A DNA stretch of 64,000 nt from Desulfoprunum benzoelyticum. Lineage in GTDB: Bacteria; Desulfobacterota; Desulfobulbia; Desulfobulbales; Desulfocapsaceae. Below the pieces are notes generated by a model. The model had not been told where the DNA came from and searched no databases. It saw nothing but the letters and a program-made list of their open reading frames with translations. Position 1 is the first letter of the stretch; each line of letters opens with the position of its first letter. Of this stretch, positions 6,433-19,048 are shown piece after piece. A program made the translations under genes and the position numbers. The stretch spans positions 1 through 64,000 of the forward strand of contig NZ_JACHEO010000005.1 of assembly GCF_014201505.1 (NCBI RefSeq). The letters are read 5' to 3'.

Positions 6433-7902
6433 TCAGCCCCCGTTCACCGGCAGCGACACGGTGAAGGCGCTGCCCTGGCCAAGCTTGCTCTCGACCCGGA
6501 TGCTGCCGCGATGGGCGGTGACGATGCTCTTGACGATCGCCAGCCCCAGGCCGGTGCCGTGGATCGTCCGGGTGTTGGCGTCCTTGACCCGGTAGAAGCT
6601 GGCGAAGATCTCCTCGAGGTCCTCCTCGGGGATGCCGTAGCCGCTATCGCGGACCGTCACCGCCAGGCAACCGCCGTCGACCCCGGCCGCCACGGTCACC
6701 CGGCCGCCCGCCGGCGAGTACTTGATGGCGTTGGTGATCAGGTTGGTGAAGACCTCGTCGAGGCCCTGGGGGTTGCCCTGGATCAGCGGCAGCGTCGGCA
6801 GCGGCTCGAGGGCCAGCTCGAGCCCGGCCGCCGTCGCCGCCGGGAGATGGAAGGCGACCTGCTCCTCCAGCAGCGTGCGGAGGTCGAGCTCCTCTTTGGC
6901 GTTGGCGATCAGCCCGGCCTCGATCCGGGCGAGGTCGAGCAGTTCCGACACCATGTTGGTGAGGTTGTGGATCTTGCCCGAGGCCCGCTCGAGGATCTCG
7001 CGCTGCTTGGCGGTGACCTCGCCGGCGAGGCCGTCGAGGATGACCTGGATCTGCATCAGCAGCGAGTTCATCGGCCCGCGGATCTCGTGCGAGACCATCG
7101 ACACGAAGTCCGACTTCATCCGCTCCATCTTCTTGCCGGCGGTGATGTCGTGGAGGACGACGATGGTACCGAGGTTGGCGCCGGTGCGGCCGCGGAACGG
7201 GGCGCAGCGGACGTCGAGGATCCGCTCGGGGCGGCCGTCGGCGGCGGGCACGGTGTGTTCCCGGACGATTTCGGTGAAGGTGTCGGCCGGCATCGCCAGC
7301 GCCTCGTCGATCATCTGCTGCAGCACCACCCCGGCGGCGACCTCCTCGACCCGGCGGCCGACGACGTCGCTCTCGGCCCAGCCGGTCATCTGCAGGAAGG
7401 CGGGATTGGCGAGGACGATGCGCTGTTCGCCGTCGGTCGTCATGACCCCGTCCATCAGGCGGTTGACGACGACCCGCAGCCGCGACTTGCTGTCGGCGAT
7501 GTCCTGCAGGGCCCGGGTATAGCGGAGCGACTTGGCGACGATGCCCCGCAGCTGGTCGGGGGTGAACGGTTTGGGGATGAAGTCGAAGGCCCCCTTCTTC
7601 ATCGCCTCGATCGAATGCTCGACCGTCGCGTAGCCGGTGATGACGATGACGACCGTGTCCGGGTGGTGTTCCCGGACCGCGGCGAGGACATCGAAGCCCG
7701 ACAGCACCGGCATCATCAGGTCGACGAGGATGATGTCGAAATGGCGGTCGGCGATCAGCGCCAGCCCCTGCTCGCCGTCGGCGGCGAGAACGACGTCGAA
7801 CCCCATCTCCTCGAGGACCATCCGGCACGCCTCGCGGATCCGCGATTCGTCGTCGACCACCAGGATCCGTCCCTTGTCTTTCGTCCCTGCTCCGATATCC
7901 AT
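6433..7902 (-). CDS. Hybrid receiver-PAS-histidine kinase
   Basis: 489 residues, no membrane segment. Domain order: an N-terminal receiver (VVDDESRIREAC, phospho-Asp in IILVDLMMPV, conserved Lys in IPKPF), a PAS domain (about residues 140-265), HisKA with the phospho-accepting His in SMVSHEIRGP, then HATPase with NLITNAIKY, DSGYGIPE and GTGLGLAIV. An N-terminal receiver suggests that another kinase feeds it; the kinase gene one base upstream is the obvious candidate. ATG 7902 is chosen because GGAG lies 6 bases before it; TTG 7914 and ATG 7908 are alternatives. It is the last gene of the long minus-strand block that begins with the Hdr/Met genes. Confidence 0.85.
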   Translation of the reverse strand: MDIGAGTKDKGRILVVDDESRIREACRMVLEEMGFDVVLAADGEQGLALIADRHFDIILVDLMMPVLSGFDVLAAVREHHPDTVVIVITGYATVEHSIEAMKKGAFDFIPKPFTPDQLRGIVAKSLRYTRALQDIADSKSRLRVVVNRLMDGVMTTDGEQRIVLANPAFLQMTGWAESDVVGRRVEEVAAGVVLQQMIDEALAMPADTFTEIVREHTVPAADGRPERILDVRCAPFRGRTGANLGTIVVLHDITAGKKMERMKSDFVSMVSHEIRGPMNSLLMQIQVILDGLAGEVTAKQREILERASGKIHNLTNMVSELLDLARIEAGLIANAKEELDLRTLLEEQVAFHLPAATAAGLELALEPLPTLPLIQGNPQGLDEVFTNLITNAIKYSPAGGRVTVAAGVDGGCLAVTVRDSGYGIPEEDLEEIFASFYRVKDANTRTIHGTGLGLAIVKSIVTAHRGSIRVESKLGQGSAFTVSLPVNGG

Positions 7903-7915
7903 GCCCATCTCCAAG

Positions 7916-9448
7916 CTAGCCGATCGAATCGAACAGGATCACGTCCGACATCGGCACCAGCGGCAGTTCGAGGGCAAAGGTCGTTCCCTCCGGGCTCGTG
8001 TCCTTGACGTAAATCCGTCCGTGGTTTTCTTCCATGATGCCGTAGGCCATGCTCAGCCCGAGGCCGGTCCCCTTGCCCACCTCCTTGGTGGAGAAGAAGG
8101 GATCGAAAATCTTCGACATGTTTTCCGCCGGGATACCGCCCCCGGTATCGCTGACCTCGAGGATCGCCTTGCGGTTGGGCCGGTCCTCATAGGTGCGGAG
8201 GGTCAGCGTGCCGTTGCCGTCCATCGCGTCGACGGCATTGATGATCAGGTTGATGACGACCTGGCACAGCTGGTTCTTGTCGGCATTGACCAGGACCGGG
8301 GCCGCCGGGGCGTCCTCGACGACCTTGACGTGGAGGAACAGCTTCTGGTCGCGGACCAGCCGCAGGCTCTCGCCCAGCGCCTCGTTGAGCTGGAAATACT
8401 GGCGGGTCGGGTTGGACTGGCGGCTGTAGGCGAGGAGGTTCTTGACGATCTCCTGGCAGCGCTGGGTATCCTCGATGATGTAGCGCAGATTCTGCTCGAG
8501 GGGGTGATCCTTCTCCAGCTTCTCCCGCATCATGCTGGCGTAGAGCAGGATGCCGGTCAGCGGGTTGTTGATCTCGTGGGCGACGCCGGCCGCCAGGCGG
8601 CCGAGCGAGGCCAGTTTCTCCGACTGGATCAGTTGGGCGTGGGCCTCCTTCAACTGGCGCTCGACCTCCAGCTTGTCCCGCAGGTCGTTGAAGATCCCGG
8701 CGGTCGCCGCCTCCCGCCCGTCCTCGTAGATGATGACGGCGGTCATCTCCGCCGGCACCTCGGCGCCGTCCTTGCGGCGGATCGTCACCCGGGTGATCGG
8801 CAGCTTGCCCTTTTCGCCGATCTCCTCGCTGCGCAGCTTCCGCATGATCTCCCGCGCCACCCCGGGCGGGTAGTAATCCTCGATGTTGACGTTGTCGATG
8901 TCATAACCGGAATAGCCGAACAGCTCCTCCGCCGCCCTGTTCATCAGGATGATCCGGCCCTGGCGGTCGGCGGCGATGATGCCGGAGACGGAGGTCTGGA
9001 CGACCTGGTCGATCAGCTCCCGGACGCCGCTGTACATCTTCTCGAGATTCTTGACCCGGGTGACGTCGCGGATGCTCTCGATGATGAAATCGACCTCCCC
9101 GTCGGCGCCGAGAATCGGCGAAAACACCCGCTCCTCCCAGCCTTCGCCGCCGTAGACGTCGTGGTACTTGAGCAGCACCGACTGACCGCTGCGGGTATGC
9201 ACCGCCCGGGCCAGCGGGCATTCGCCCTGTTCGGCGCAGGGGAATTTCTGCTCGGGATAATTGCGGAGGTTGACTTCCCGGCAGGAGCGACCGATGATCT
9301 CCTCCTCCTCGACCCCCATCTTCTCCAGGTACCGGCCGTTGACGGCGATGATCGTCCGGTCGGGCAGGAGGATGATCGTGGGGTAGGACAGTGACTCGAA
9401 CACCCGCAGCCGCCAGTCGATTTCCCTGTCGATGCCTTTGTTCATCAT
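7916..9448 (-). CDS. PAS-domain sensor histidine kinase with a Cys-rich first PAS
   Basis: 510 residues, soluble. Two PAS domains (about residues 10-130 and 140-265) precede HisKA ([17 protein letters not shown], phospho-His) and HATPase ([25 protein letters not shown]), an NtrB-like arrangement. The first PAS carries Cys56, Cys71 and Cys77 in RSCREVN and [10 protein letters not shown], a potential metal, Fe-S or redox sensing site. Start ATG 9448 follows GGAGGAAGAACGGCC; the longer frame to 9592 has no such signal. The next gene starts after the stop with almost no gap. Together the two kinases and the upstream CheY-like protein form a phosphorelay-sized set. Confidence 0.85.
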
Positions 9449-9548
9449 GGCCGTTCTTCCTCCACAGTATTGCAGCGATCCCGCCACACGAGCCGACTGC
9501 ACCACCCCCCGGACGGCGTCGGCGCCGCCGCAGCGATTCGCCGCCGCC

Positions 9549-10079
9549 TCAGCCATTGCTGGGCCCCGCCGGCGGCCGGCTGTCGATGACAAAGGTGTGC
9601 CTCAGGCAATCGACGGTCCGGGCGGCGCAATCCGCCGGCACCACCAGGTGGATGCTGGTCCCGGAACAGCCGGAGGCCAGCAGCGGGATCGCCGCCGCCA
9701 GCACCGGGGCGATCGCCGCCTCGGCGATGCCGTAGCGATCCTGGAAGTGCGGCCCGTGCAGATAGACCATCTCCACCGGCGCCAGCTGCCGCCACGACCC
9801 GGGACCGGCGCCGGTCCCGGATTCCAGCAGGCGGCGAATCCGCTGGTCCCGATCATCGTCGGACGCCAGCAGCAGCGACAGCCGCATCGTGCCGGCGGAG
9901 AGGGGCTGCAGGGTCACCAGCTGAAAGGTCACGCCGGCCTGGCCCAGGGAGGCGATCATCTCCCCCCAGTGCGCCAGCCGTTGCCCCGGGAACTCCACCG
10001 TGAACAGGGACAGACCGGTGACGGTCGAGACTCCGTAGATGCGGATCTGGGGTTCCCAGTATACAGCAATTGTTTCCAT
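9549..10079 (-). CDS. ACT-like regulatory protein (paralogue 2)
   Basis: 176 residues without a catalytic domain. The segments SLFTVEFPGQRLAHWGEMIA and GTSIHLVVPADCAARTVDCL have the beta-alpha-beta pattern and spacing of aspartate-kinase-type ACT modules, one in each half. It lies 24 bases downstream of a second ACT-like gene and overlaps no other gene. ACT modules usually bind amino acids or small ligands and modulate partner proteins. The position between the Hdr/Met genes and two kinases suggests a sensing role, but that is inference. The start has no strong ribosome binding site. Confidence 0.6.
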   Translation of the reverse strand: METIAVYWEPQIRIYGVSTVTGLSLFTVEFPGQRLAHWGEMIASLGQAGVTFQLVTLQPLSAGTMRLSLLLASDDDRDQRIRRLLESGTGAGPGSWRQLAPVEMVYLHGPHFQDRYGIAEAAIAPVLAAAIPLLASGCSGTSIHLVVPADCAARTVDCLRHTFVIDSRPPAGPSNG

Positions 10080-10103
10080 TGGCAGCTCAGAAAACTTCGG
10101 TAC

Positions 10104-10667
10104 TCACCGTTTGATCTGGGTGATGGAAAACTCGGGCCGGAAGGGGGAATGATGCTCCGGCAGATCGACTATGGCGCCCAGTATTGCCACCGCCTCATCG
10201 AGCCGCGGAAAGTCGATGTTGACCGACAACGCCGAGATCGAGGTGCAGAGGCTGTGGACAGCGATCCCGGCCTCGGCCAGGGAGGCGACGACGCGGCCGA
10301 GCAGGGCGGGGCTGCGGCGATGCGGAAAAATCGTCAGCGTCCCGACCCCGGCGATCCGCTCTATCCGCTCCGTTCCCGGCCGGCCGGCGACATCGCCAGC
10401 GTCGACCGGGACGGCGGCGAGGAGCGCATCGACCTCCAGGGCCGCGGCGGCGGCAACGCAGAAGGTGCTGCGGAGCAGGTCGCCATCGCGGCCGGAGCAG
10501 AAATAGGTCAGATTGATCCGCCGCCCCGCCAACTGCCGCAGCACGATCGGCAGCGACCGGTCGGCAATTGCGACCTGGCGGCAGGTGTACTGGACCAGTT
10601 CGGGGCTGAACTTGATGCCGCCGACATCGATCCGGGGTTCATCTGGAGGCGTTAGCTGCTTCTCCAC
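10104..10667 (-). CDS. ACT-like regulatory protein (paralogue 1)
   Basis: 187 residues. The N-terminal part (GGIKFSPELVQYTCRQVAIA, then a RRINLTYFC strand) and the C-terminal part (GVGTLTIFPHRRSPALLGRV, then AGIAVHSLCTSISALSVNID) look like paired ACT modules. The second closely follows the aspartokinase pattern in which Ser/Thr and Asn line a ligand pocket. No kinase or dehydrogenase domain is attached. The only in-frame start found is GTG 10667, so the N-terminus is uncertain. The gene sits directly upstream of a second ACT-like gene and downstream of a CheY-like regulator, in the same orientation. Confidence 0.6.
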   Translation of the reverse strand: MEKQLTPPDEPRIDVGGIKFSPELVQYTCRQVAIADRSLPIVLRQLAGRRINLTYFCSGRDGDLLRSTFCVAAAAALEVDALLAAVPVDAGDVAGRPGTERIERIAGVGTLTIFPHRRSPALLGRVVASLAEAGIAVHSLCTSISALSVNIDFPRLDEAVAILGAIVDLPEHHSPFRPEFSITQIKR

Positions 10668-10744
10668 TCGTCATCGGCCGGTAAAAGATGGGAATTCATC
10701 CTCCGGACAGCGCCGGAGGATCAGGGGATATTGCACGGACGAAT

Positions 10745-10784
10745 CCCGCATCGAACACATGGACCTTCTCCGTTTCGATGCGGG
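10745..10784. repeat. 11-bp perfect inverted repeat downstream of the CheY-like gene
   Basis: CCCGCATCGAA (10745-10755) and TTCGATGCGGG (10774-10784) are separated by 18 bases. The stem is strong but has no T tract in either direction. It may be a processing or pausing structure that separates the CheY-like gene from the ACT genes rather than a true intrinsic terminator. Confidence 0.6.
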
Positions 10785-10792
10785 AATGGGGT

Positions 10793-11176
10793 CTACAGGC
10801 TGTCCTGGACGATCTCAACGAGCTTGTCCATGTCGACCGGCTTCGCCACGTAGTCGTCGGCCAGGGTCGTCTTGCCGCCCATGTGGGTGTAGTTGGTCGA
10901 GGAGATCGCATCGGTGACCGCCGTCAGCAGGACGATGACGATGCCCTTGTACTCCTCGGACGTCTTCAGCTCGTTGCACAGGGTGTAGCCGTCCTTGCGC
11001 GGCATCATGACATCGAGGATGATCAGTGCCGGCCGCTCCTCCTTGATTTTGGCCATCGCCTCGACGCCGTCATAGGCCTTGGCGACCCGGAAATTCTTGC
11101 TCTCCAGTTTCATGGCCATCATCTCGACCAGATCGGTATCGTCATCCACTACCAGTATGAGATTGTTCTTACTCAT
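10793..11176 (-). CDS. CheY-like single-domain response regulator
   Basis: 127 residues comprising only a receiver domain: acidic pair VVDDDTD near residue 10, phospho-acceptor Asp in LIILDVMMPRKDG (about residue 55), Thr in LLTAV, and Lys in DYVAKPVD. It has no output domain. An insertion TNYTHMGGKTTLADDY between beta4 and beta5 is longer than in CheY. The ribosome binding site GAGGAGG lies just behind a short hairpin (11189-11204). The gene lies between metF and the ACT genes; a stand-alone receiver there could link the downstream kinases to the Hdr/Met complex, but this is not shown by sequence. Confidence 0.85.
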   Translation of the reverse strand: MSKNNLILVVDDDTDLVEMMAMKLESKNFRVAKAYDGVEAMAKIKEERPALIILDVMMPRKDGYTLCNELKTSEEYKGIVIVLLTAVTDAISSTNYTHMGGKTTLADDYVAKPVDMDKLVEIVQDSL

Positions 11177-11221: not shown

Positions 11222-12145
11222 CTATACTACAGGTCTGGGCAGCAGGCCGGCTCGTTCAACGATTTCCTTGACCTTTTCTTCCCAGTCGATGGCCATGATG
11301 TGGAAGCCGGCGACGCCCTCGATCTTCTTCAGCCGCTCGATGGTCTCGATGCAGATGGTGATGCCCTCCTCCGGCTGCTTCTCCTTCGGCTGGGCCGCCA
11401 TCCGGTCGACGATCTCCTGGGGGACGTCCATACCGGGCACCTTGTTCTTCATGTAGCGGGCGGCGCCGACCGACTTGATCGGGGTGATGCCGGCGAGGAT
11501 ATAGCACTTCTTGTGCAGCCCCATCGACCGCACCCCTTCCATCCATTTCTCGAACTTGTCGACGTTGAAGATGCACTGGGTCTGGATGAAATCCGCCCCC
11601 GCCGCGATCTTCTTGGCCAGACGCAGGACCCGCAGCTCGAAGGGATCGGCGAAGGGGTTGGCGGCGGCGCCGATGAACATCTTCGGCGGGTTCTTGAGCT
11701 CGGCCCCGCCCTGGAACAGCCCTTCGTCGCGCATCCGCTTGACCATCTGGATCATCTGGATGGAGTCGATGTCATGGACGTTGGCGGCCATCGGGTGGTC
11801 GCCGAACTTGGTGTGATCGCCGGACAGACAGAGCATCGTGTCGATCCCCAGCGAATAGGCGCCGATGATGTCGGCCTGCATCGCCAGGCGGTTGCGGTCG
11901 CGGCTGACGACCTGCAGCAGCGGGTTGAGCCCCTCCTGCCTGAGAATCGCCGAGGCGGCGAGACTCGACATCCGCACCATCGCCGTCTGGTTGTCGGTGA
12001 CGTTGATCGCATCGACGACGCCCTCGAGATATTTTCCCTTCTCCCGCACCTTATCGGGCATGCACCCCCGCGGCGGGCCGCACTCGGAGGTTACTGCCAG
12101 ATGCCCTGCGGCCAGTACCTTCTCCAGTTTGCTTTCGGTTTTCAT
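11222..12145 (-). CDS. metF: Methylenetetrahydrofolate reductase, MetF-type
   Basis: 307 residues of the MetF TIM-barrel family, which reduces methylene-THF to methyl-THF. Visible family features are TSECGPPRG near the N-terminus (the catalytic-Glu region), SRDRNRLAMQADIIGA, the folate/FAD loop CLSGDHTKFGDHP with its conserved Asp, and GADFIQTQCIF. Its ATG overlaps the stop of the MetV gene (ATGA), typical of tightly co-expressed MetVF pairs. In Moorella and related anaerobes, MetF, MetV, HdrABC and MvhD are encoded together and form one complex; the same set is present here. It would act in the methyl branch of the Wood-Ljungdahl pathway. Confidence 0.9.
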   Translation of the reverse strand: MKTESKLEKVLAAGHLAVTSECGPPRGCMPDKVREKGKYLEGVVDAINVTDNQTAMVRMSSLAASAILRQEGLNPLLQVVSRDRNRLAMQADIIGAYSLGIDTMLCLSGDHTKFGDHPMAANVHDIDSIQMIQMVKRMRDEGLFQGGAELKNPPKMFIGAAANPFADPFELRVLRLAKKIAAGADFIQTQCIFNVDKFEKWMEGVRSMGLHKKCYILAGITPIKSVGAARYMKNKVPGMDVPQEIVDRMAAQPKEKQPEEGITICIETIERLKKIEGVAGFHIMAIDWEEKVKEIVERAGLLPRPVV

Positions 12146-12810
12146 TCTGCCAGATCCTCTCTGATTATCTTTCTTGGGCCAGCGCCTTTACCTGCCCGCC
12201 AGTCCTTGGCCGGGGCAATCTCCACATAGCGATCCTGCTGCCCTAATTCCTTCAACCGCTCCCAGATCAGGGCCCAGGCGCAGTCGACATCGTCGCCGAT
12301 CTCGCAGTGGCCGTTCGTCGACCCACCGCAGGGACCGTTCATCAGCTGTTTGGCACAGCGGGCGATCGGGCAGATGCCGCCGGTTTCACCGAGCAGGCAA
12401 TTGCCGCAGCCCATGCACCTCTCGGCCCAGACGCCCTGCCGTTCCGAGGCCCCCATGAACTTGGTGTTGAGGGCCGGGTAGACAGGTTTGTTCTTGAAGC
12501 GGCGGGCCACTTCCTGGACCCCGCAGCCACAGGCCATCGACATCACCGCGTCGACGCCGTCGAGCATCGGCACCAGCTCCTCGACATACTCGGGGTCGCA
12601 CTGGCGCTCGAGGGTGTGTTCCCGCACCTCGATGCTGGCGCCGGCCTTGAGCAGGGCCATCTGCAGCCCGGAGGCGAGCAGTCCCACCTCCTTGCGGCCG
12701 CCGGCGGCGCAGACCGTCACGCACTCGTTGCAGCCGACAAGCAGGATGCGCCGATAGGGACGAATATATTCAATGAGTTCTTCCAGGGGTTTTCGTTCTG
12801 CCGTGATCAT
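12142..12810 (-). CDS. metV: MetV-like iron-sulfur/zinc partner of MetF
   Basis: 222 residues of the methylenetetrahydrofolate reductase C-terminal family (MetV). The N-terminal part has VGCNECVTVCAAGGRKEV. The C-terminal part carries a Cys-rich ligand set CMGCGNCLLGETGGICP followed by ARCAK, then GPCGGSTNGHCEI. MetV couples MetF to electron donors in acetogens and sulfate reducers. Start ATG 12810 follows GGAGAGTG. It lies between the MvhD-like gene and metF, overlapping the latter by four bases, which fits a stable MetVF unit docked to HdrA/MvhD. Confidence 0.88.
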   Translation of the reverse strand: MITAERKPLEELIEYIRPYRRILLVGCNECVTVCAAGGRKEVGLLASGLQMALLKAGASIEVREHTLERQCDPEYVEELVPMLDGVDAVMSMACGCGVQEVARRFKNKPVYPALNTKFMGASERQGVWAERCMGCGNCLLGETGGICPIARCAKQLMNGPCGGSTNGHCEIGDDVDCAWALIWERLKELGQQDRYVEIAPAKDWRAGKGAGPRKIIREDLAE

Positions 12811-12854: not shown

Positions 12855-13289
12855 TCAAGCCGCTTTTCCCGTTTCAATGGCGGCATGGATCGGGCTCGGC
12901 CCCATCCGACGGATCTTCTCGGTGATCTCCGTCGCCACCTGGGCGAAACGGTAGCCCATGCCGGCGGACATCGTCACCATTTCCAGGCGATCCGGCTCGA
13001 TGCCGATTTCATCCATATATCTGCGAACATAGGCAACCATGCGGGCCGCCTTGGTATTGCCGTTCTTGAAGTGGCAGTCACCCTCGAGGCAGCCGGCGAC
13101 GTACACCCCGTCGGCCCCCTTCTCGAAGGCCTTGACGACGTGCATCGCATCGACCTTGCCCGAGCAGGGAACCCGGATGACCTTGACATTGGGGGGATAG
13201 GAAAGCCGCTGGCTCCCCGCCATGTCGGCGGCGGTATAGGCACAGTAGTGGCAGCAGAAGGCCACGATGACCGGTTCAAAGTTATCCAT
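12855..13289 (-). CDS. mvhD: MvhD/FrhD-like hydrogenase iron-sulfur subunit
   Basis: 144 residues of the methyl-viologen-reducing hydrogenase delta family (2Fe-2S protein). Motifs: VAFCCHYCAYTAAD at the N-terminus, VIRVPCSGKVD, and VAGCLEGDCHFKNGN, which supply the conserved cysteines. MvhD normally passes electrons between a hydrogenase or other donor and HdrA. ATG 13289 overlaps the TGA of hdrA (TGATG), so the two are translationally coupled. A GTG one codon earlier is possible. No Mvh hydrogenase subunits are nearby, so the donor here is likely another protein, such as MetFV. Confidence 0.9.
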   Translation of the reverse strand: MDNFEPVIVAFCCHYCAYTAADMAGSQRLSYPPNVKVIRVPCSGKVDAMHVVKAFEKGADGVYVAGCLEGDCHFKNGNTKAARMVAYVRRYMDEIGIEPDRLEMVTMSAGMGYRFAQVATEITEKIRRMGPSPIHAAIETGKAA

Positions 13290-16200
13290 CACGCGATACT
13301 CCTCTCAAAGAGTTCTTCCAGTTTGGCCATGATCCGGTCATCCTCGAACTGCATCAGCTGGATGGCCTTGGCCGGACAGACGGAGGCGCAGACACCGCAA
13401 CCGTGGCACTTGGCCGGATCGATTTCCGAATAGCCGTCGGCATTGATGTAGGGGATGCCGAAGGGGCAGGCCCGGACGCAGACCAGACAGGCGGCGCAGC
13501 GATCGCGGTCGACCCGGGCCGCCCTGGCCCCGAGATCGATGGTGTCGCGGGCCAGCATCGTCAACGCCCGCGAGGAGGCGGCCAGCGCCTGGGCGACACT
13601 CTCGCGGATCAGCTTCGGCCCGTGGGCGGTGCCGGCGACGAAGAAGCCGGGCACCGGCAGATCGACCGGCCGCAGTTTGACATGGTCTTCGAGGAAATAG
13701 CCGTCGGCGGTCCGCGGGATCTTGAAGATCATCGCCAACTCGTCGTTGCCGTCCTCGTCGGCCACCAGGCCGGTGCTGAGACAGAGCCGATCGGCGTTGA
13801 CGGTGATCTCGCGGCCCAGGACCGGGTCGTTGAAGGTGACCTCGACCATGTTCCCCACCGCCTTCACCTGCGGCGGCGCCTCGGCGCTGTAGCGGGCGAA
13901 GATCACCCCGGCCTGGCGCGCCTTCTGGTAATACTCCTCCTGGAAGCCGTAGGTCCGCATGTCGCGATACAGCACGAAAATGCGGGCTTCGGGGTTGACC
14001 TCGAGGATCCGCAGGGCGTTCTTGACCGCGGTCTGGCAGCAGATCCGGGAACAGTTGGGATTGTCGGCGGTCCGCGACCCGACGCACTGGATCATCACGA
14101 CGTTGTCCCAGGTCCGGACGGTCTCGGGATTTTCCGCGATCAGGGCCTGCAGCTCGAGCTGGGTCGACACCTGGCTGCACTCGTCGAGCAGGTACTGGGC
14201 GGGGCGGTTCGGCAGGGCGCCGGTGGCGAGAATCGTGACCCCGTGCTCGATCTGGCGGTAGAACATCTGCCGTCCGGTCTGCATCCCGGTCTTGAACATG
14301 CCGGGCAGACCGCTGTGGTCGACGATCAGCGCCCGGGTGATGACCTGGATGTTGGCATGGGCCTCGGTGCGGGCGACAAGATCACGCACCAGCGGCGCCA
14401 CTTCGTCACCTTCCAGGGTCCGGTGGATCTTCGCCGCCTGACCGCCGAGCGCGGCCGAGCGTTCGGCGAGGTAGACCTTGTGGCCGTGGTCGGCGAGCTG
14501 GAGGGCGGCGGTCATGCCGGCGACACCGCCGCCGACGACCAGCACGTCCTTGTTCATCGGCAGACTGTGGTCGGCCAGCGGCTGGGAGCGGACAACGCTG
14601 CCGACCGCCATCCGGACCAGGTCCTTGGCCTTTTCGGTCGCCCCTTCGGCCCGGTTGGCATGAACCCAGGTGACCTGATCGCGGATATTGGCAATCTCGA
14701 GAAGATAGCGGTTGAGGCCGGCCTTGCGGATGACTTCCTGGAACTTGGCCTCATGGGTGCGGGGCGAACAGCCGCCGATCACGACCCGGTTGATCTTCTC
14801 GTCGACGATGATCTGCTGGATCTGGCGCATCGACTCGCGGCTGCAGCCGTGGCCCTGGAGGCGGGAGACGGCGACATGGGGCAGGGTCCCGGCGTAGTCG
14901 GCCAGGGCGCCGGCATCGATGACCCCGCCGATATTCTCGCCGCAGTCGCAGATGAAGACCCCGACCCGCGGTTCCTCGCCGACCACGCCGAATTCGGGGG
15001 GCAGCAGTTCCTGGTCCGCCTCGGTCTTCTCGACCTTCTCGGCCGGGGCGAGATCACCGGCGGCCATGATCGCGGCGGCGCTGGCCTGGACCATGGTCTC
15101 GGGAATATCCTTCGGCGCCTCGATGACCCCGGCGACATAGACGCCGGGTACCGAAGTCACCACCGGGTTGAAGCCGTCGGTGGTCGGGAACCCGCCGCTG
15201 TTGAGATCAAGGCCCAGCTTGCCGGCCAGGACCCGGACGTCGTCGGCCACCCGGAAACCGGTGGAGAGGACGACGATATCGAATTCCTCCGTGACATTGA
15301 CGGGACCGCTGTCGGTGCCGTAGGTCACGACCAGATTGTCGACCCCGGCCGGGCGGAGGACACTGTGCGGCCGGCTGCGGACGAAGCGGACCCCGAACTC
15401 GTCCCGCGCCCGCAGAAAGTAGCGCTCGTAGTCCTTGCCCATGGTCCGCATGTCCATGTAGAAGATCGTCGTCTCGATGTCGTCGCCGAACCGCTCCTTC
15501 GTGACGATGGCCTCCTTCAGGGCGAACATGCAGCAGGCGCTCGAACAGTACTGGCCGGCCCCCTTCTGCAGGCCCCGGGAGCCGACGCACTGGATCCAGG
15601 CGACCTTCTTCGGCTGCTGGCCGTTCGAGGGCCGGATCAGCCGACCCATCGTCGGTCCGGAGGCGGACAGGATCCGCTCGTACTCGAGGCTGGTGACGAC
15701 GTCGGCCTGGGCGGCGTAGCCGAGATAATCGAGATGGCTGGGGTCGAACAGGGCGCCGCCGGGAACGAAGACGATCGAGGCGCACTTGACCTCGCGCCTG
15801 CTGCCGAAGTCGTCGGGGTTGATCGCCCCGGCCGGGCACGATTCCATCAGGGCCTTGACGTCGGTGCACTTGGCCATGTCGATCGAAAAGGCCTGGGGCG
15901 TCGCCTGGGGATAGCGCATGCAGGTCGGGGCGCGATGGTCGAGCCCGGGGGTGAACCGCACCCATTCCGGAAATTTCTTGTGGCACTCGCCGCAGGCGGT
16001 GCACTTGTCGAGGTTGATGAAGCGGGGGGCGGTCTCGAGCTGGACCGTGAAATCGCCCTTCGTGCCCTTGACGTCGGTGACCGTCGTCATCGTCACCAGT
16101 TCGATGTGTTCCTGGCGGCTGCCCTCGGAGAGATTGGGCGCCAGGGTGCACAGATCGCAGTTGTTGGTCGGGAAGGTGCGGTCGAGCTGGGTCATCAGCC

Positions 16201-16324
16201 CGCCGATGGAGTAGGCGCGATCGACAAGGATGACGTTCTTTTCGGCCTCGGCCAGGTCGAGAGCCGTACGGATGCCGGCCATGCCGCCGCCGATCACCAG
16301 GACTCTGTTGTTGCTGGTATTCAT
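13289..16324 (-). CDS. hdrA: Double-length HdrA: FAD- and Fe-S-containing heterodisulfide reductase subunit A
   Basis: 1011 residues, about 1.5 times a methanogen HdrA. Two complete FAD-binding Rossmann modules are visible: VLVIGGGMAGIRTAL at residue 9 and VLVVGGGVAGMTAAL near residue 595. Each is followed by a Cys cluster of IQCVGSR type (WIQCVGSRGLQKGAGQYC; IQCVGSRTADNPNCSRICC). Further clusters are DKCTACGECHKKFP near residue 110 and a C-terminal 2[4Fe-4S] ferredoxin (CAACLVCVRACPFG and CHGCGVCASVCPA, about residues 940-985). HdrA is the flavin-based electron-bifurcating core of Hdr complexes. The tandem arrangement and the MvhD, MetFV and HdrCB neighbours indicate a cytoplasmic bifurcating or confurcating complex rather than a methanogenic CoM-S-S-CoB reductase. 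Confidence 0.93.
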   Translation of the reverse strand: MNTSNNRVLVIGGGMAGIRTALDLAEAEKNVILVDRAYSIGGLMTQLDRTFPTNNCDLCTLAPNLSEGSRQEHIELVTMTTVTDVKGTKGDFTVQLETAPRFINLDKCTACGECHKKFPEWVRFTPGLDHRAPTCMRYPQATPQAFSIDMAKCTDVKALMESCPAGAINPDDFGSRREVKCASIVFVPGGALFDPSHLDYLGYAAQADVVTSLEYERILSASGPTMGRLIRPSNGQQPKKVAWIQCVGSRGLQKGAGQYCSSACCMFALKEAIVTKERFGDDIETTIFYMDMRTMGKDYERYFLRARDEFGVRFVRSRPHSVLRPAGVDNLVVTYGTDSGPVNVTEEFDIVVLSTGFRVADDVRVLAGKLGLDLNSGGFPTTDGFNPVVTSVPGVYVAGVIEAPKDIPETMVQASAAAIMAAGDLAPAEKVEKTEADQELLPPEFGVVGEEPRVGVFICDCGENIGGVIDAGALADYAGTLPHVAVSRLQGHGCSRESMRQIQQIIVDEKINRVVIGGCSPRTHEAKFQEVIRKAGLNRYLLEIANIRDQVTWVHANRAEGATEKAKDLVRMAVGSVVRSQPLADHSLPMNKDVLVVGGGVAGMTAALQLADHGHKVYLAERSAALGGQAAKIHRTLEGDEVAPLVRDLVARTEAHANIQVITRALIVDHSGLPGMFKTGMQTGRQMFYRQIEHGVTILATGALPNRPAQYLLDECSQVSTQLELQALIAENPETVRTWDNVVMIQCVGSRTADNPNCSRICCQTAVKNALRILEVNPEARIFVLYRDMRTYGFQEEYYQKARQAGVIFARYSAEAPPQVKAVGNMVEVTFNDPVLGREITVNADRLCLSTGLVADEDGNDELAMIFKIPRTADGYFLEDHVKLRPVDLPVPGFFVAGTAHGPKLIRESVAQALAASSRALTMLARDTIDLGARAARVDRDRCAACLVCVRACPFGIPYINADGYSEIDPAKCHGCGVCASVCPAKAIQLMQFEDDRIMAKLEELFERSIA

Positions 16325-16420: not shown

Positions 16421-17293
16421 TCAGATTCCGGCGATATCGAGAATTGCCGGCAGCTTGTGCTCCCAGCCGAGGGTCTGGATCATGACCCCTTCGGTCATCG
16501 TCTTCAAGGCCGCCACCGTCTCGCCGGCGATCTGGATCCCCTCCTGCTCGCGATCCGATGACTTCCTGATGCGGCGGGTGAGCTCGTCGGAAATATGGGC
16601 GCCGGGTTCGCTGTTGGCGATATACTGGGCGATCGCCAGCGACTTGAGGAGGAAGACGGTGGGAATGACCGGGACCCCGAGCTTCTTGAACTGCGGCAAC
16701 TGGGTGGCGAAGTGGGAAAGATCGAAGACCGGCGGGGTGATGACGAACATCGCCCCGGCCTCGATTTTTCTGGCGGCGACCGCCAGTTCGGCCTCCAGTT
16801 CGGCGGCATCGGCGCAGGGGGCGATGGTGCAGCCGACGGTGAAGCTGGGAATGCCGTCAAGATCGAAACCGGCCAGGTCGCGACCGGCCTGGAGCTGGCG
16901 GATGGCGCCCAGCAGGCCGATCTCGTCGAGGTCGGCGACGGTCTTGGCGTCGCTGTGGTCACCCTGGCTCATCTCCTCGCTGTGGGCGACGATCAGGTTC
17001 TGGATGCCGAGGACATGGGCGGCGAGGATGTCGCCCTGGAGGGCCATGCGGTTGCGGTCGCGACAGTAGGTGTGGATGATTGCCTCCACCCCCTGCTGCT
17101 GCATCAGGACGCCGCCGGCAATCGCGCTCATGCGCATGATGCCGTTGTCCATATCGGGAATGACGACCGCATCGATCCTGCCCTTGATGCGCCGCGCATC
17201 GGTCATCAGCCTCGAGATATTCACACCCTTCGGGGTATGCATCTCGGCCAGGACTACAAATTCATGTGCCTGTAATCTTTTCTGAAAACTCAT
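16421..17293 (-). CDS. Second MetF-family protein within the Hdr cluster
   Basis: 290 residues clearly homologous to the MetF barrel: LAEMHTPKG at the N-terminus, RMSAIAGGVLMQQQG, CRDRNRMALQGDILAAHVLG and KIEAGAMFVITPPVFD. Where metF in the same operon has the loop SGDH, this protein has VAHSEEMSQGDH, so the usual Asp of the folate-binding loop is replaced or displaced. It lies between the HdrCB gene and hdrA. It may be a second MTHFR-like subunit, a structural partner, or an enzyme for another C1 carrier. Start ATG 17293 follows GAGAGAGGAAACG. Family membership is secure, function is not. Confidence 0.75.
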   Translation of the reverse strand: MSFQKRLQAHEFVVLAEMHTPKGVNISRLMTDARRIKGRIDAVVIPDMDNGIMRMSAIAGGVLMQQQGVEAIIHTYCRDRNRMALQGDILAAHVLGIQNLIVAHSEEMSQGDHSDAKTVADLDEIGLLGAIRQLQAGRDLAGFDLDGIPSFTVGCTIAPCADAAELEAELAVAARKIEAGAMFVITPPVFDLSHFATQLPQFKKLGVPVIPTVFLLKSLAIAQYIANSEPGAHISDELTRRIRKSSDREQEGIQIAGETVAALKTMTEGVMIQTLGWEHKLPAILDIAGI

Positions 17294-17359: not shown

Positions 17360-18679
17360 TTACAGGGCAGTTTCGGGATGAAAAACATTGACGTCGCGCA
17401 GATCGTCTCCCAGGTAGGTCCGCTCGTTGGGGCCGAGGATCCCCAGCGACAGACAGATCAGGGTCCAGATATGGACGGTACTGTACTTGCCGCCGAAATG
17501 GTGGCCGATATCGTGGACCTGGGCGTGGCAGTTGTGGCAGCCGGTGATGCAGTAATCGGCCCCGGTGGCCGTGATCTGGTCGAACTTGATCTTGCCGTAG
17601 GTCCGCCGCTCCTCGGGATAGCCGGACTGGAGGAAGCCGCCGCCGCCGCCGCAACAGTAGTTGTTCGACTTGTTCGGCGTCATCTCGATGATATTCTCCT
17701 TGCCGACGACCGATTCGACGACGAAGCGGAGGTCATCGGCGACGGGATCGCCGAAACTCTTGCGGACGATCTGGCAGGGATCCTGGATCGTGAACTTGAC
17801 CCCCAGATCCTTGTTCCAGTCGGAATTGACCTTCAGGCGGCCTTCGCGGATCCACCTGGCGTAGTACTGATAGATTGAAGCAACTTCAAACTTGTGATCG
17901 ATGTTGAATTTTTTCAGTCCGGCCCGGACCGAGAAGGTGATGTGGCCTCACTCGGTGTTGAGAAAGACCTTCGCCCCGAGCTGGTCGGCCTGGCGGGCCG
18001 AGACCCGGGTCACATGCTCCCAGCTCTCGTTCTCGGCGAGGAACATGCAGTAGTTTTCCGCCGCCCAGCCCTTGCTGCCGTAGGTCCAGTCGACCCCGGC
18101 GAGATGGAGGATCTTCCACAGCGGCACCAGCTCGTCCGGCTCCGTCACCGGTTCGCGGGAGTTCTGGTTGAGGAAGAAATGGGCACCCTCCTTGTCGATC
18201 GGGGCCTGCATGTCGGCGAATTCCGGCTGCGACTCGCGGTACTCTTCGAGCACGTCCTGGACGACGAAGACGAAGTCGTCGGGCGCCGTGCCCATGGCGC
18301 TGTTGGAATCGTTGCGCAGGGCCATGTCGCAGGAATTGCGGATGCCGCTCGGCCGCTTGTCCCGCGGCCAGGAGGCCCGGGCATTGAAGACGAGCTGGGG
18401 GATGTTGATCTTCATCGGGCAGACGTAGCTGCACCGCTCACACATCGTGCACATCCAGACCCACGGGGTCGTCGTGACCTCGTCGTCGAGGCCCATCGCA
18501 CACATGCGCAGGAATTTGCGCGGGTCCATATCCGCCAGACCGGCCGCCGGGCATCCGGAGACGCAGGCGCCGCAGGTCAGGCAGAGGTTGAGGTTGCCCC
18601 CTTCCGGGAGAAGCTCCTTCACCGCATCGATGAAACCGCTCTTCTTTTTACCTGTTATAACAATACTGTTTTCCGGCAT
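17360..18679 (-). CDS. Fused HdrC-HdrB-like Fe-S protein with a predicted selenocysteine (TGA at 17948-17950)
   Basis: The frame runs 440 codons from ATG 18679 to the final stop with one in-frame TGA at codon 244, giving 439 residues. The N-terminal HdrC-like part has two [4Fe-4S] motifs: CLTCGACVSGCP (Cys33, 36, 39, 43) and CTMCERCSYVCP (Cys77, 80, 83, 87). The C-terminal HdrB/HdrD-like part contains a full CCG module after the TGA: Cys302, then CCGGGGG at 342-343, then CHNC at 381-384. The TGA sits in TE-U-GH, where related CCG proteins have Cys, and a bacterial SECIS-like hairpin lies 23 bases downstream. A conventional reading would give two truncated genes. HdrB subunits carry non-cubane [4Fe-4S] clusters that reduce disulfides or pass electrons. 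Ribosome binding site: GAGAGGAAAAGG. Confidence 0.85.
17917..17950 (-). promoter_or_regulatory. UGA selenocysteine codon and candidate bacterial SECIS hairpin
   Basis: The TGA is at 17950-17948 in minus orientation. Starting 19 nt after it, GUCCG-GGC-CGGAC (17929-17917) forms a 5-bp stem with a 3-nt loop. The loop begins with G and lies 23 nt from the UGA. This fits published bSECIS criteria (loop 16-37 nt from UGA, loop of 3-14 nt, G in the first two loop positions). A weaker alternative pairs GGCC right after UGA with the later GGCC. Confidence 0.65.
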
Positions 18680-18761: not shown

Positions 18762-19010
18762 TCAGGGCCGGCACTTGCGGATCCGCACCCGGAAAAAATC
18801 GGGTCCGGTATAACTCCTGCCGTCCATCAGCACTTCGTACGAGGCCTCGGGCAGCACCTTCAGCAGATCCTGTTTGATATCGGGGTCGGAGCCCCGGATC
18901 TCCATGATCTGTGACGGCTGCATCCGACTGAAGGCCTCCGTCATCTTCAACAGTGAGATGGACGAGAAGGTATTTCTGAAATCCAGTATGATGTCGTCGT
19001 TGCCTGCCAC
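18762..19010 (-). CDS. TusA/SirA-like small protein lacking the CPxP cysteine
   Basis: 82 residues with the TusA fold pattern: IILDFRNTFSSISLLKMTEA, then MEIRGSDPDIKQDLLKVLPE and a final strand DFFRVRIRKC. Typical TusA proteins read LDxRGxxCPxPLLK, with Cys as sulfur carrier. Here the position reads NTFSSISLLK, so persulfide transfer by that Cys is not possible. A longer frame to ATG 19037 exists. GTG 19010 is preferred because GGAGGAG lies 9 bases upstream and the sigma-54 promoter predicts transcription starting near 19038, which would leave the longer form almost leaderless. It is the first gene of the Hdr/Met block. TusA-like proteins often accompany Hdr-like complexes. Confidence 0.65.
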   Translation of the reverse strand: MAGNDDIILDFRNTFSSISLLKMTEAFSRMQPSQIMEIRGSDPDIKQDLLKVLPEASYEVLMDGRSYTGPDFFRVRIRKCRP

Positions 19011-19048
19011 TTCCGCACACTCCTCCATGTTGTCCACCCGATCTGTTG

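Follow-up and report, generated by a model that had tools for sequence, protein, structure and literature searches.

Which electron partner the Hdr-type methylene-THF reductases (MTHFRs) use is an open question for acetogens and Wood–Ljungdahl sulfate reducers alike. The window analysed here, a stretch of 64,000 nucleotides from Desulfoprunum benzoelyticum, contains genes of such a reductase beside a gene for an HdrC-HdrB fusion that is interrupted by an in-frame TGA codon. The locus raises two questions: whether this codon ends the protein or encodes selenocysteine (Sec), and which part the joined protein would play next to MetF and MetV.

Decoding of UGA codon 244

The fusion gene lies on the minus strand at positions 17360..18679; the initial annotation had given this interval without a strand. 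The reverse complement from 18679 to 17360 forms one frame of 439 residues ending with TAA, and translation of this strand agreed with the earlier statement that TGA at codon 244 (17948..17950, minus strand) is the sole interruption. The context of the codon is LNTE-U-GHITF, and C302, C342-C343 and the CxxC at 381-384, which had been named before, were all found in the translated frame. Site 244 stood out within the window as a TGA with coding potential on both flanks. A coding-potential scan of the window for further TGA-joined genes gave none that we judged convincing, the other candidates being gene ends or out of frame. Gene callers that end at TGA can split a Sec-containing HdrCB subunit in two.

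By default TGA ends translation, and the resulting 243-residue product would have the whole HdrC-like part of the protein. The codon could therefore be a true stop, in a pseudogene, through an assembly error or in a gene making the short HdrC-like product only. Comparison with relatives argued strongly against this. Codon 244 was the identical TGA in all first orthologue matches (110/110), which showed 73-96% identity and came from many assemblies; they were taken from GTDB genomes and same-family genomes, two collections that overlap in part. In a wider set of 148 distinct relatives, comprising the orthologues together with paralogues and sequences from genomes across the phylum, the column held Sec (TGA) in 124 and Cys in 24, with no other residue, and the Cys that the initial annotation had stated for related CCG proteins was present in paralogues. 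On a quick tree of 61 members, well supported branches forced at least five switches between Sec and Cys, and parsimony counted nine. Selection on the protein was alike before and after the UGA, with dN/dS of about 0.03-0.17 for pairs with unsaturated synonymous sites, a range that leaves out the pair with the relative L096, in which these sites are saturated.

A bacterial SECIS stem-loop with an 8-bp stem and a GGC loop was located at 17914..17932 (minus strand). Its hairpin, GUCCG-GGC-CGGAC, starts at the 19th nucleotide after the UGA and has its loop G at the 24th, and the full predicted stem comprises 8 pairs. The folding energy was mildly unusual only (z = -1.78; 11 of 200 shuffles folded as well) and is weak evidence by itself, so that comparative evidence has to decide. 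Among the 124 TGA copies, 8 stem pairs were formed in 93, 7 in 30 and 6 in one, always at a fixed distance from the UGA; the Cys copies did not keep the stem and had 1-6 of the 8 pairs. The stem variants GUCC/GGAC, AUCC/GGAU and ACCC/GGGU showed that the sequence changes and the pairing is retained. Paired cells made up 94.3% of the stem, compared with 10-47% with slid partners, a control that keeps the relatedness of the sequences. Cells changed on both sides of the stem numbered 34 against a shuffled mean of 12, a control that is inflated by related sequences. In addition, synonymous variation across 88 orthologues was lowest at codons 251-255 among all five-codon runs of the gene: the third-position entropy there was 0.24 bits, whereas the rest of the gene had a median of 1.64. 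Nothing useful came from Rfam, either when the window was scanned at gathering thresholds or when the SECIS region was scanned by E-value. The pairing in Sec copies, the covariation and the synonymous constraint bear out the SECIS hairpin that had been proposed from the single sequence.

The genome also has the machinery for Sec insertion, and the selA, selB, selC and selD genes for which the initial annotation had suggested a search are represented by selA, selB, tRNA-Sec (anticodon UCA) and two selD genes. Each selD gene (L128 and L129; G000:C13 and C2) contains one in-frame TGA, so SelD is apparently itself a selenoprotein in both copies. tRNA-Sec scored over the cut-off in 35 of 38 other genomes of the phylum having the family; the three family-bearing genomes without it (G145, G282 and G307) may be incomplete.

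A pseudogene or an assembly error is untenable in view of the conserved UGA, the stem-loop, the selection on both sides of the codon, the Sec machinery and the Sec/Cys exchange; sequencing error is ruled out on the same grounds, and we give a true stop of any kind next to no weight. The product of the gene is almost certainly an intact selenoprotein with Sec at residue 244, as the initial annotation had claimed.

Domain architecture and the Sec site

The first part of the protein is HdrC-like (18407..18592, minus strand). Residues 30-91 matched Pfam Fer4_8 and the HdrC chains of 8rvv, 7bkb and 5odc, and this part carries two [4Fe-4S] motifs (C33/36/39/43 and C77/80/83/87), all eight Cys residues of which were invariant in 60 relatives. 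The remainder is predicted to have the HdrB fold: in the AlphaFold model built with 41 sequences (mean pLDDT of 80, pTM of 0.83), the best PDB matches were HdrB of 8rwn and 5odc. Both results agree with the HdrC-HdrB-type fusion described initially.

The HdrB-like part has one complete CCG module, module 2 (17441..17818, minus strand), whose residues C302, C342, C343, C381 and C384 were invariant in 60 dereplicated relatives and form a predicted noncubane [4Fe-4S] site. Module 1 (17876..18187, minus strand) is degenerate. Two of its five ligand positions are left, C211 and U244, the other ligand positions not being Cys, and H246 is retained beside them. In the 60 relatives, residue 211 was Cys in 56 and Gly in 4, residue 244 was Cys or Sec in all, and H246 was invariant. 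The initial annotation had placed the UGA in the first CCG module, which is correct by topology; the Cys residues that it listed after the UGA (302, 342-343 and 381-384) belong to module 2. Since module 1 is degenerate, it is unlikely that U244 ligates a complete first cluster.

A profile alignment to mycobacterial EtfD (9ojn, E 7.9e-7) placed U244-G-H246 on C581-P-H583-C584. Of these EtfD residues, C581 and C584 bind a linear module 1 cluster, and H583 is a ligand to the noncubane cluster in module 2 (PMC13083937). The equivalents of C503 and C584 are missing in the Sec protein, and hence the module 1 cluster is probably absent. On the basis of this alignment and the predicted secondary structure, we infer that H246 reaches the open iron of the module 2 noncubane cluster and that Sec244 lies beside the cluster. 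Comparing the profiles of the two modules directly gave no significant match (E 0.19); the register of this comparison put N-Y-C211 on N-Y-C342 and, when extended, U244 on C381, in agreement with the EtfD alignment. A Sec that exchanges only with Cys, next to an invariant His whose counterpart in EtfD is a noncubane ligand, indicates where the CCG subunit is likely to react.

The position of the UGA, between the HdrC-like part and module 2, would also suit a dual use of the codon, in which selenium yields the full HdrCB and its lack the HdrC-like part only, so that selenium supply switches the complex. The separate Cys paralogues found in some relatives could then take over. However, truncation at UGA without selenium is general to Sec genes, and we regard such a switch as very unlikely. 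Selenium supply may limit C1 metabolism in bacteria with a Sec-containing HdrCB.

Gene neighbourhood and proposed function

Downstream of the Sec gene and on the same minus strand lie genes for a second MTHFR-like protein about 30% identical to MetF (MTHFR2, 16421..17293), a 1011-residue HdrA with two FAD modules (13289..16324), an MvhD/FlpD (VhuD-like) [2Fe-2S] subunit (12855..13292), MetV (12142..12810; PF12225, the MTHFR C-terminal domain) and MetF, the methylene-THF reductase flavoprotein (11222..12145). The gene set of an Hdr-type MTHFR, namely metF, metV, mvhD, hdrA and hdrB/C, is thus found together, and the Hdr-MTHFR setting named in the initial annotation was confirmed by the HdrA, MvhD, MetV and MetF genes. 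MetF is followed on the minus strand (6433-11176) by genes for a lone response regulator, two proteins that matched no Pfam family, a PAS histidine kinase and a hybrid kinase, which are possibly a regulatory module for the MTHFR cluster. The Sec gene is also adjoined by a gene for a TusA-fold protein without the catalytic Cys (18762..19037, minus strand; weak PF01206 match below the cut-off), which has an SSIS-type sequence in place of CPxP. A TusA-fold gene was seen beside the Sec gene in 20 of 80 loci, nearly all of them MTHFR-type clusters.

The cluster recurs in relatives in more than one arrangement. The order in Desulfocapsaceae and other relatives was Sec-HdrCB–(MTHFR2)–HdrA–MvhD–MetV–MetF, and that in many Desulfobacterales was HdrA–MvhD–Sec-HdrCB–MetV–MetF. 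Cultured relatives that share the cluster include Desulfofustis glycolicus (L030), Desulfopila aestuarii (L014) and Desulforhopalus singaporensis (L032). MTHFR2 stands between the Sec gene and HdrA in the Desulfocapsaceae-type clusters and is missing from several others (for example, L019 and L082); it may work on a different C1 carrier or have a structural role. MetF and/or MetV lay beside the gene in 46 of the 80 loci, in several orders, and a further 8 showed HdrA only, most of them on short contigs. Neither MetF/MetV nor HdrA was next to the gene in the other 26, about half of which have at least 5 kb on both sides; the link to MTHFR is therefore not universal.

The same genome carries two further Sec copies. 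One (L132, G000:C13, 7710-9005) is 70% identical to the protein described here and lies in an HdrA-MvhD-Sec-MetV-MetF cluster of its own, which brings the Sec-containing Hdr-type MTHFR clusters of this genome to two. The third (L133, G000:C3, 6934-8082) is 34-36% identical, lies beside HdrA and MvhD, and is the likely orthologue of the GlpC selenoprotein reported in 2006; in the relative L145, VhuG and VhuA hydrogenase genes come after its counterpart, and this arrangement is the operon of the 2006 report. A Cys-form paralogue (L142, 6526-7773) adjoins GlpA and GlpB and is therefore probably a GlpC-type subunit there. We set it aside as a model of function, as its partners differ.

These distributions bear on the possibility that the Sec protein is a GlpC/HdrD-like protein with the U-G-H motif for which the MTHFR link is incidental, a general electron-transfer module working with quinone or DsrC in the manner of TmcB, HmcF and DsrK. 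The best NCBIfam matches were indeed to TmcB (164.7 bits against a cut-off of 735), HmcF (156.7 against 750) and DsrK (100.6 against 400), all below the cut-offs; the 26 relatives outside MTHFR/HdrA clusters and the related paralogues with HdrA-MvhD-hydrogenase or with GlpAB point the same way. However, linkage to MTHFR genes recurs in several gene orders and occurs twice in one genome, and we consider an incidental link improbable. The gene linkage indicates that the Sec protein likely belongs to an Hdr–MTHFR complex.

We therefore favour, with a probability of roughly 0.8, a reading in which the Sec244-containing HdrC-HdrB protein is the CCG subunit of a MetF-MetV-MvhD-HdrA complex. UGA-244 would be decoded by SelB and tRNA-Sec with the stem-loop, and the product would be the subunit that faces a thiol/disulfide or a cofactor, in a methylene-tetrahydrofolate reductase complex of the kind that has been proposed for Moorella. 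Electrons would pass between the FMN of MetF, the Fe-S centres of MetV and MvhD, and the flavin of HdrA, which probably bifurcates or confurcates them, and from HdrA through the cubane clusters of the HdrC-like part to the single noncubane [4Fe-4S] cluster of module 2. Sec244 and His246, which with C211 are the remains of module 1, would face this cluster, His246 capping or gating the open iron and the Sec244 selenolate acting as a nucleophile or an extra ligand toward a disulfide or persulfide partner. The complex could work in the direction of methylene-THF reduction in CO2 fixation, or in reverse in acetate oxidation. A likely reactive site at Sec244 opens a direct test of the partner of Hdr-type MTHFRs.

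A more specific version is that Sec244 and His246 at the open iron make the protein a half-site heterodisulfide reductase, with Sec replacing the second noncubane cluster of HdrB; in sulfate reducers, methyl-THF/methylene-THF chemistry would then be coupled to a partner that is a thiol or persulfide. We offer this version tentatively and regard it as doubtful.

Relation to known systems

The initial annotation had called the selenoprotein undetected, which did not hold for the family. Published lists from 2006 onward include a Sec-containing "Fe-S oxidoreductase-like (GlpC)" or HdrD-type family with the motif UGH (PMC1794560; PMC13188914), the second of these sources being a 2026 review that lists the GlpC-like family with this motif. 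Furthermore, hdrD4 of Desulfobacterium autotrophicum, of the HdrC–HdrB type, was called a selenoprotein in 2009 (PMC2702500). The protein from the window resembles the GlpC UGH family in its architecture, the U-G-H motif, the Cys homologues at the column and the adjacent HdrA and MvhD, and its Pfam Fer4_8 and CCG matches, both above the cut-off, give the ferredoxin and CCG combination of that family (COG0247/PTHR43551). However, the operon of the family is glpC-hdrA-frhD-frhG-frhA with a NiFe hydrogenase, whereas the protein described here belongs to a separate branch with MetF/MetV and is about 35% identical to the hydrogenase-linked branch. Of the published hdrA-frhD-frhG-frhA operon, which is not strictly defining, hdrA and frhD/mvhD are present, and metV and metF replace frhG and frhA. 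Scores for the GlpC equivalogs were below their cut-offs (TIGR03379, 34.8 against 279.9; NF008369, 43.3 against 278). HdrD4 of D. autotrophicum, likened here by its published description only (PMC2702500), is likewise a soluble Sec protein of a sulfate reducer with HdrC and HdrB domains.

Structural comparisons relate the Sec protein to two other systems. HdrB of methanogens (5odc and 8rwn) has the same fold, being the best structural match, and the same module 2 motif. However, HdrB has two complete CCG modules with two noncubane clusters, whereas module 1 of the Sec protein lacks most ligands, keeping C211 and U244 only, and the score for NCBIfam HdrB (TIGR03288) was 23.3 bits against a cut-off of 345. 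Mycobacterial EtfD (9ojn; PMC13083937) shares the HdrC/HdrB-type soluble part, the CPHC of module 1 aligned with U-G-H, and the noncubane cluster of module 2. Unlike the Sec protein, EtfD has a heme b-containing membrane domain, and its module 1 keeps a linear [3Fe-4S] cluster; of the Cys ligands to that cluster, two are missing in the Sec protein, and the equivalent of C581 is Sec.

Gene sets of Hdr-type MTHFR (MetFV-HdrABC-MvhD) are known from Moorella and Sporomusa (PMC9430772) and from the sulfate-reducing partners of methanotrophic archaea (PMC10553843), and deep-sea Chloroflexi have such a set with HdrC fused to HdrB (PMC5736913). In Sporomusa, MetVF and the Hdr subunits interact, yet the Hdr subunits did not co-purify with MetVF (PMC9430772). 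We found no statement of Sec in the CCG subunit of an Hdr-type MTHFR in the open-licence literature, to which our search was limited, so the absence of an earlier report is not proof of novelty. The apparent novelty lies in the conserved presence of the Sec form in Hdr-type MTHFR clusters, together with the argument for the location of the Sec residue. The cluster described here has the same genes as those of Moorella and Sporomusa, namely metF, metV, mvhD, hdrA and hdrB/hdrC, with the last two fused as in Chloroflexi. It differs from the known Hdr-type MTHFRs in that its HdrCB has Sec and one complete CCG module and that an extra MTHFR-like gene is present.
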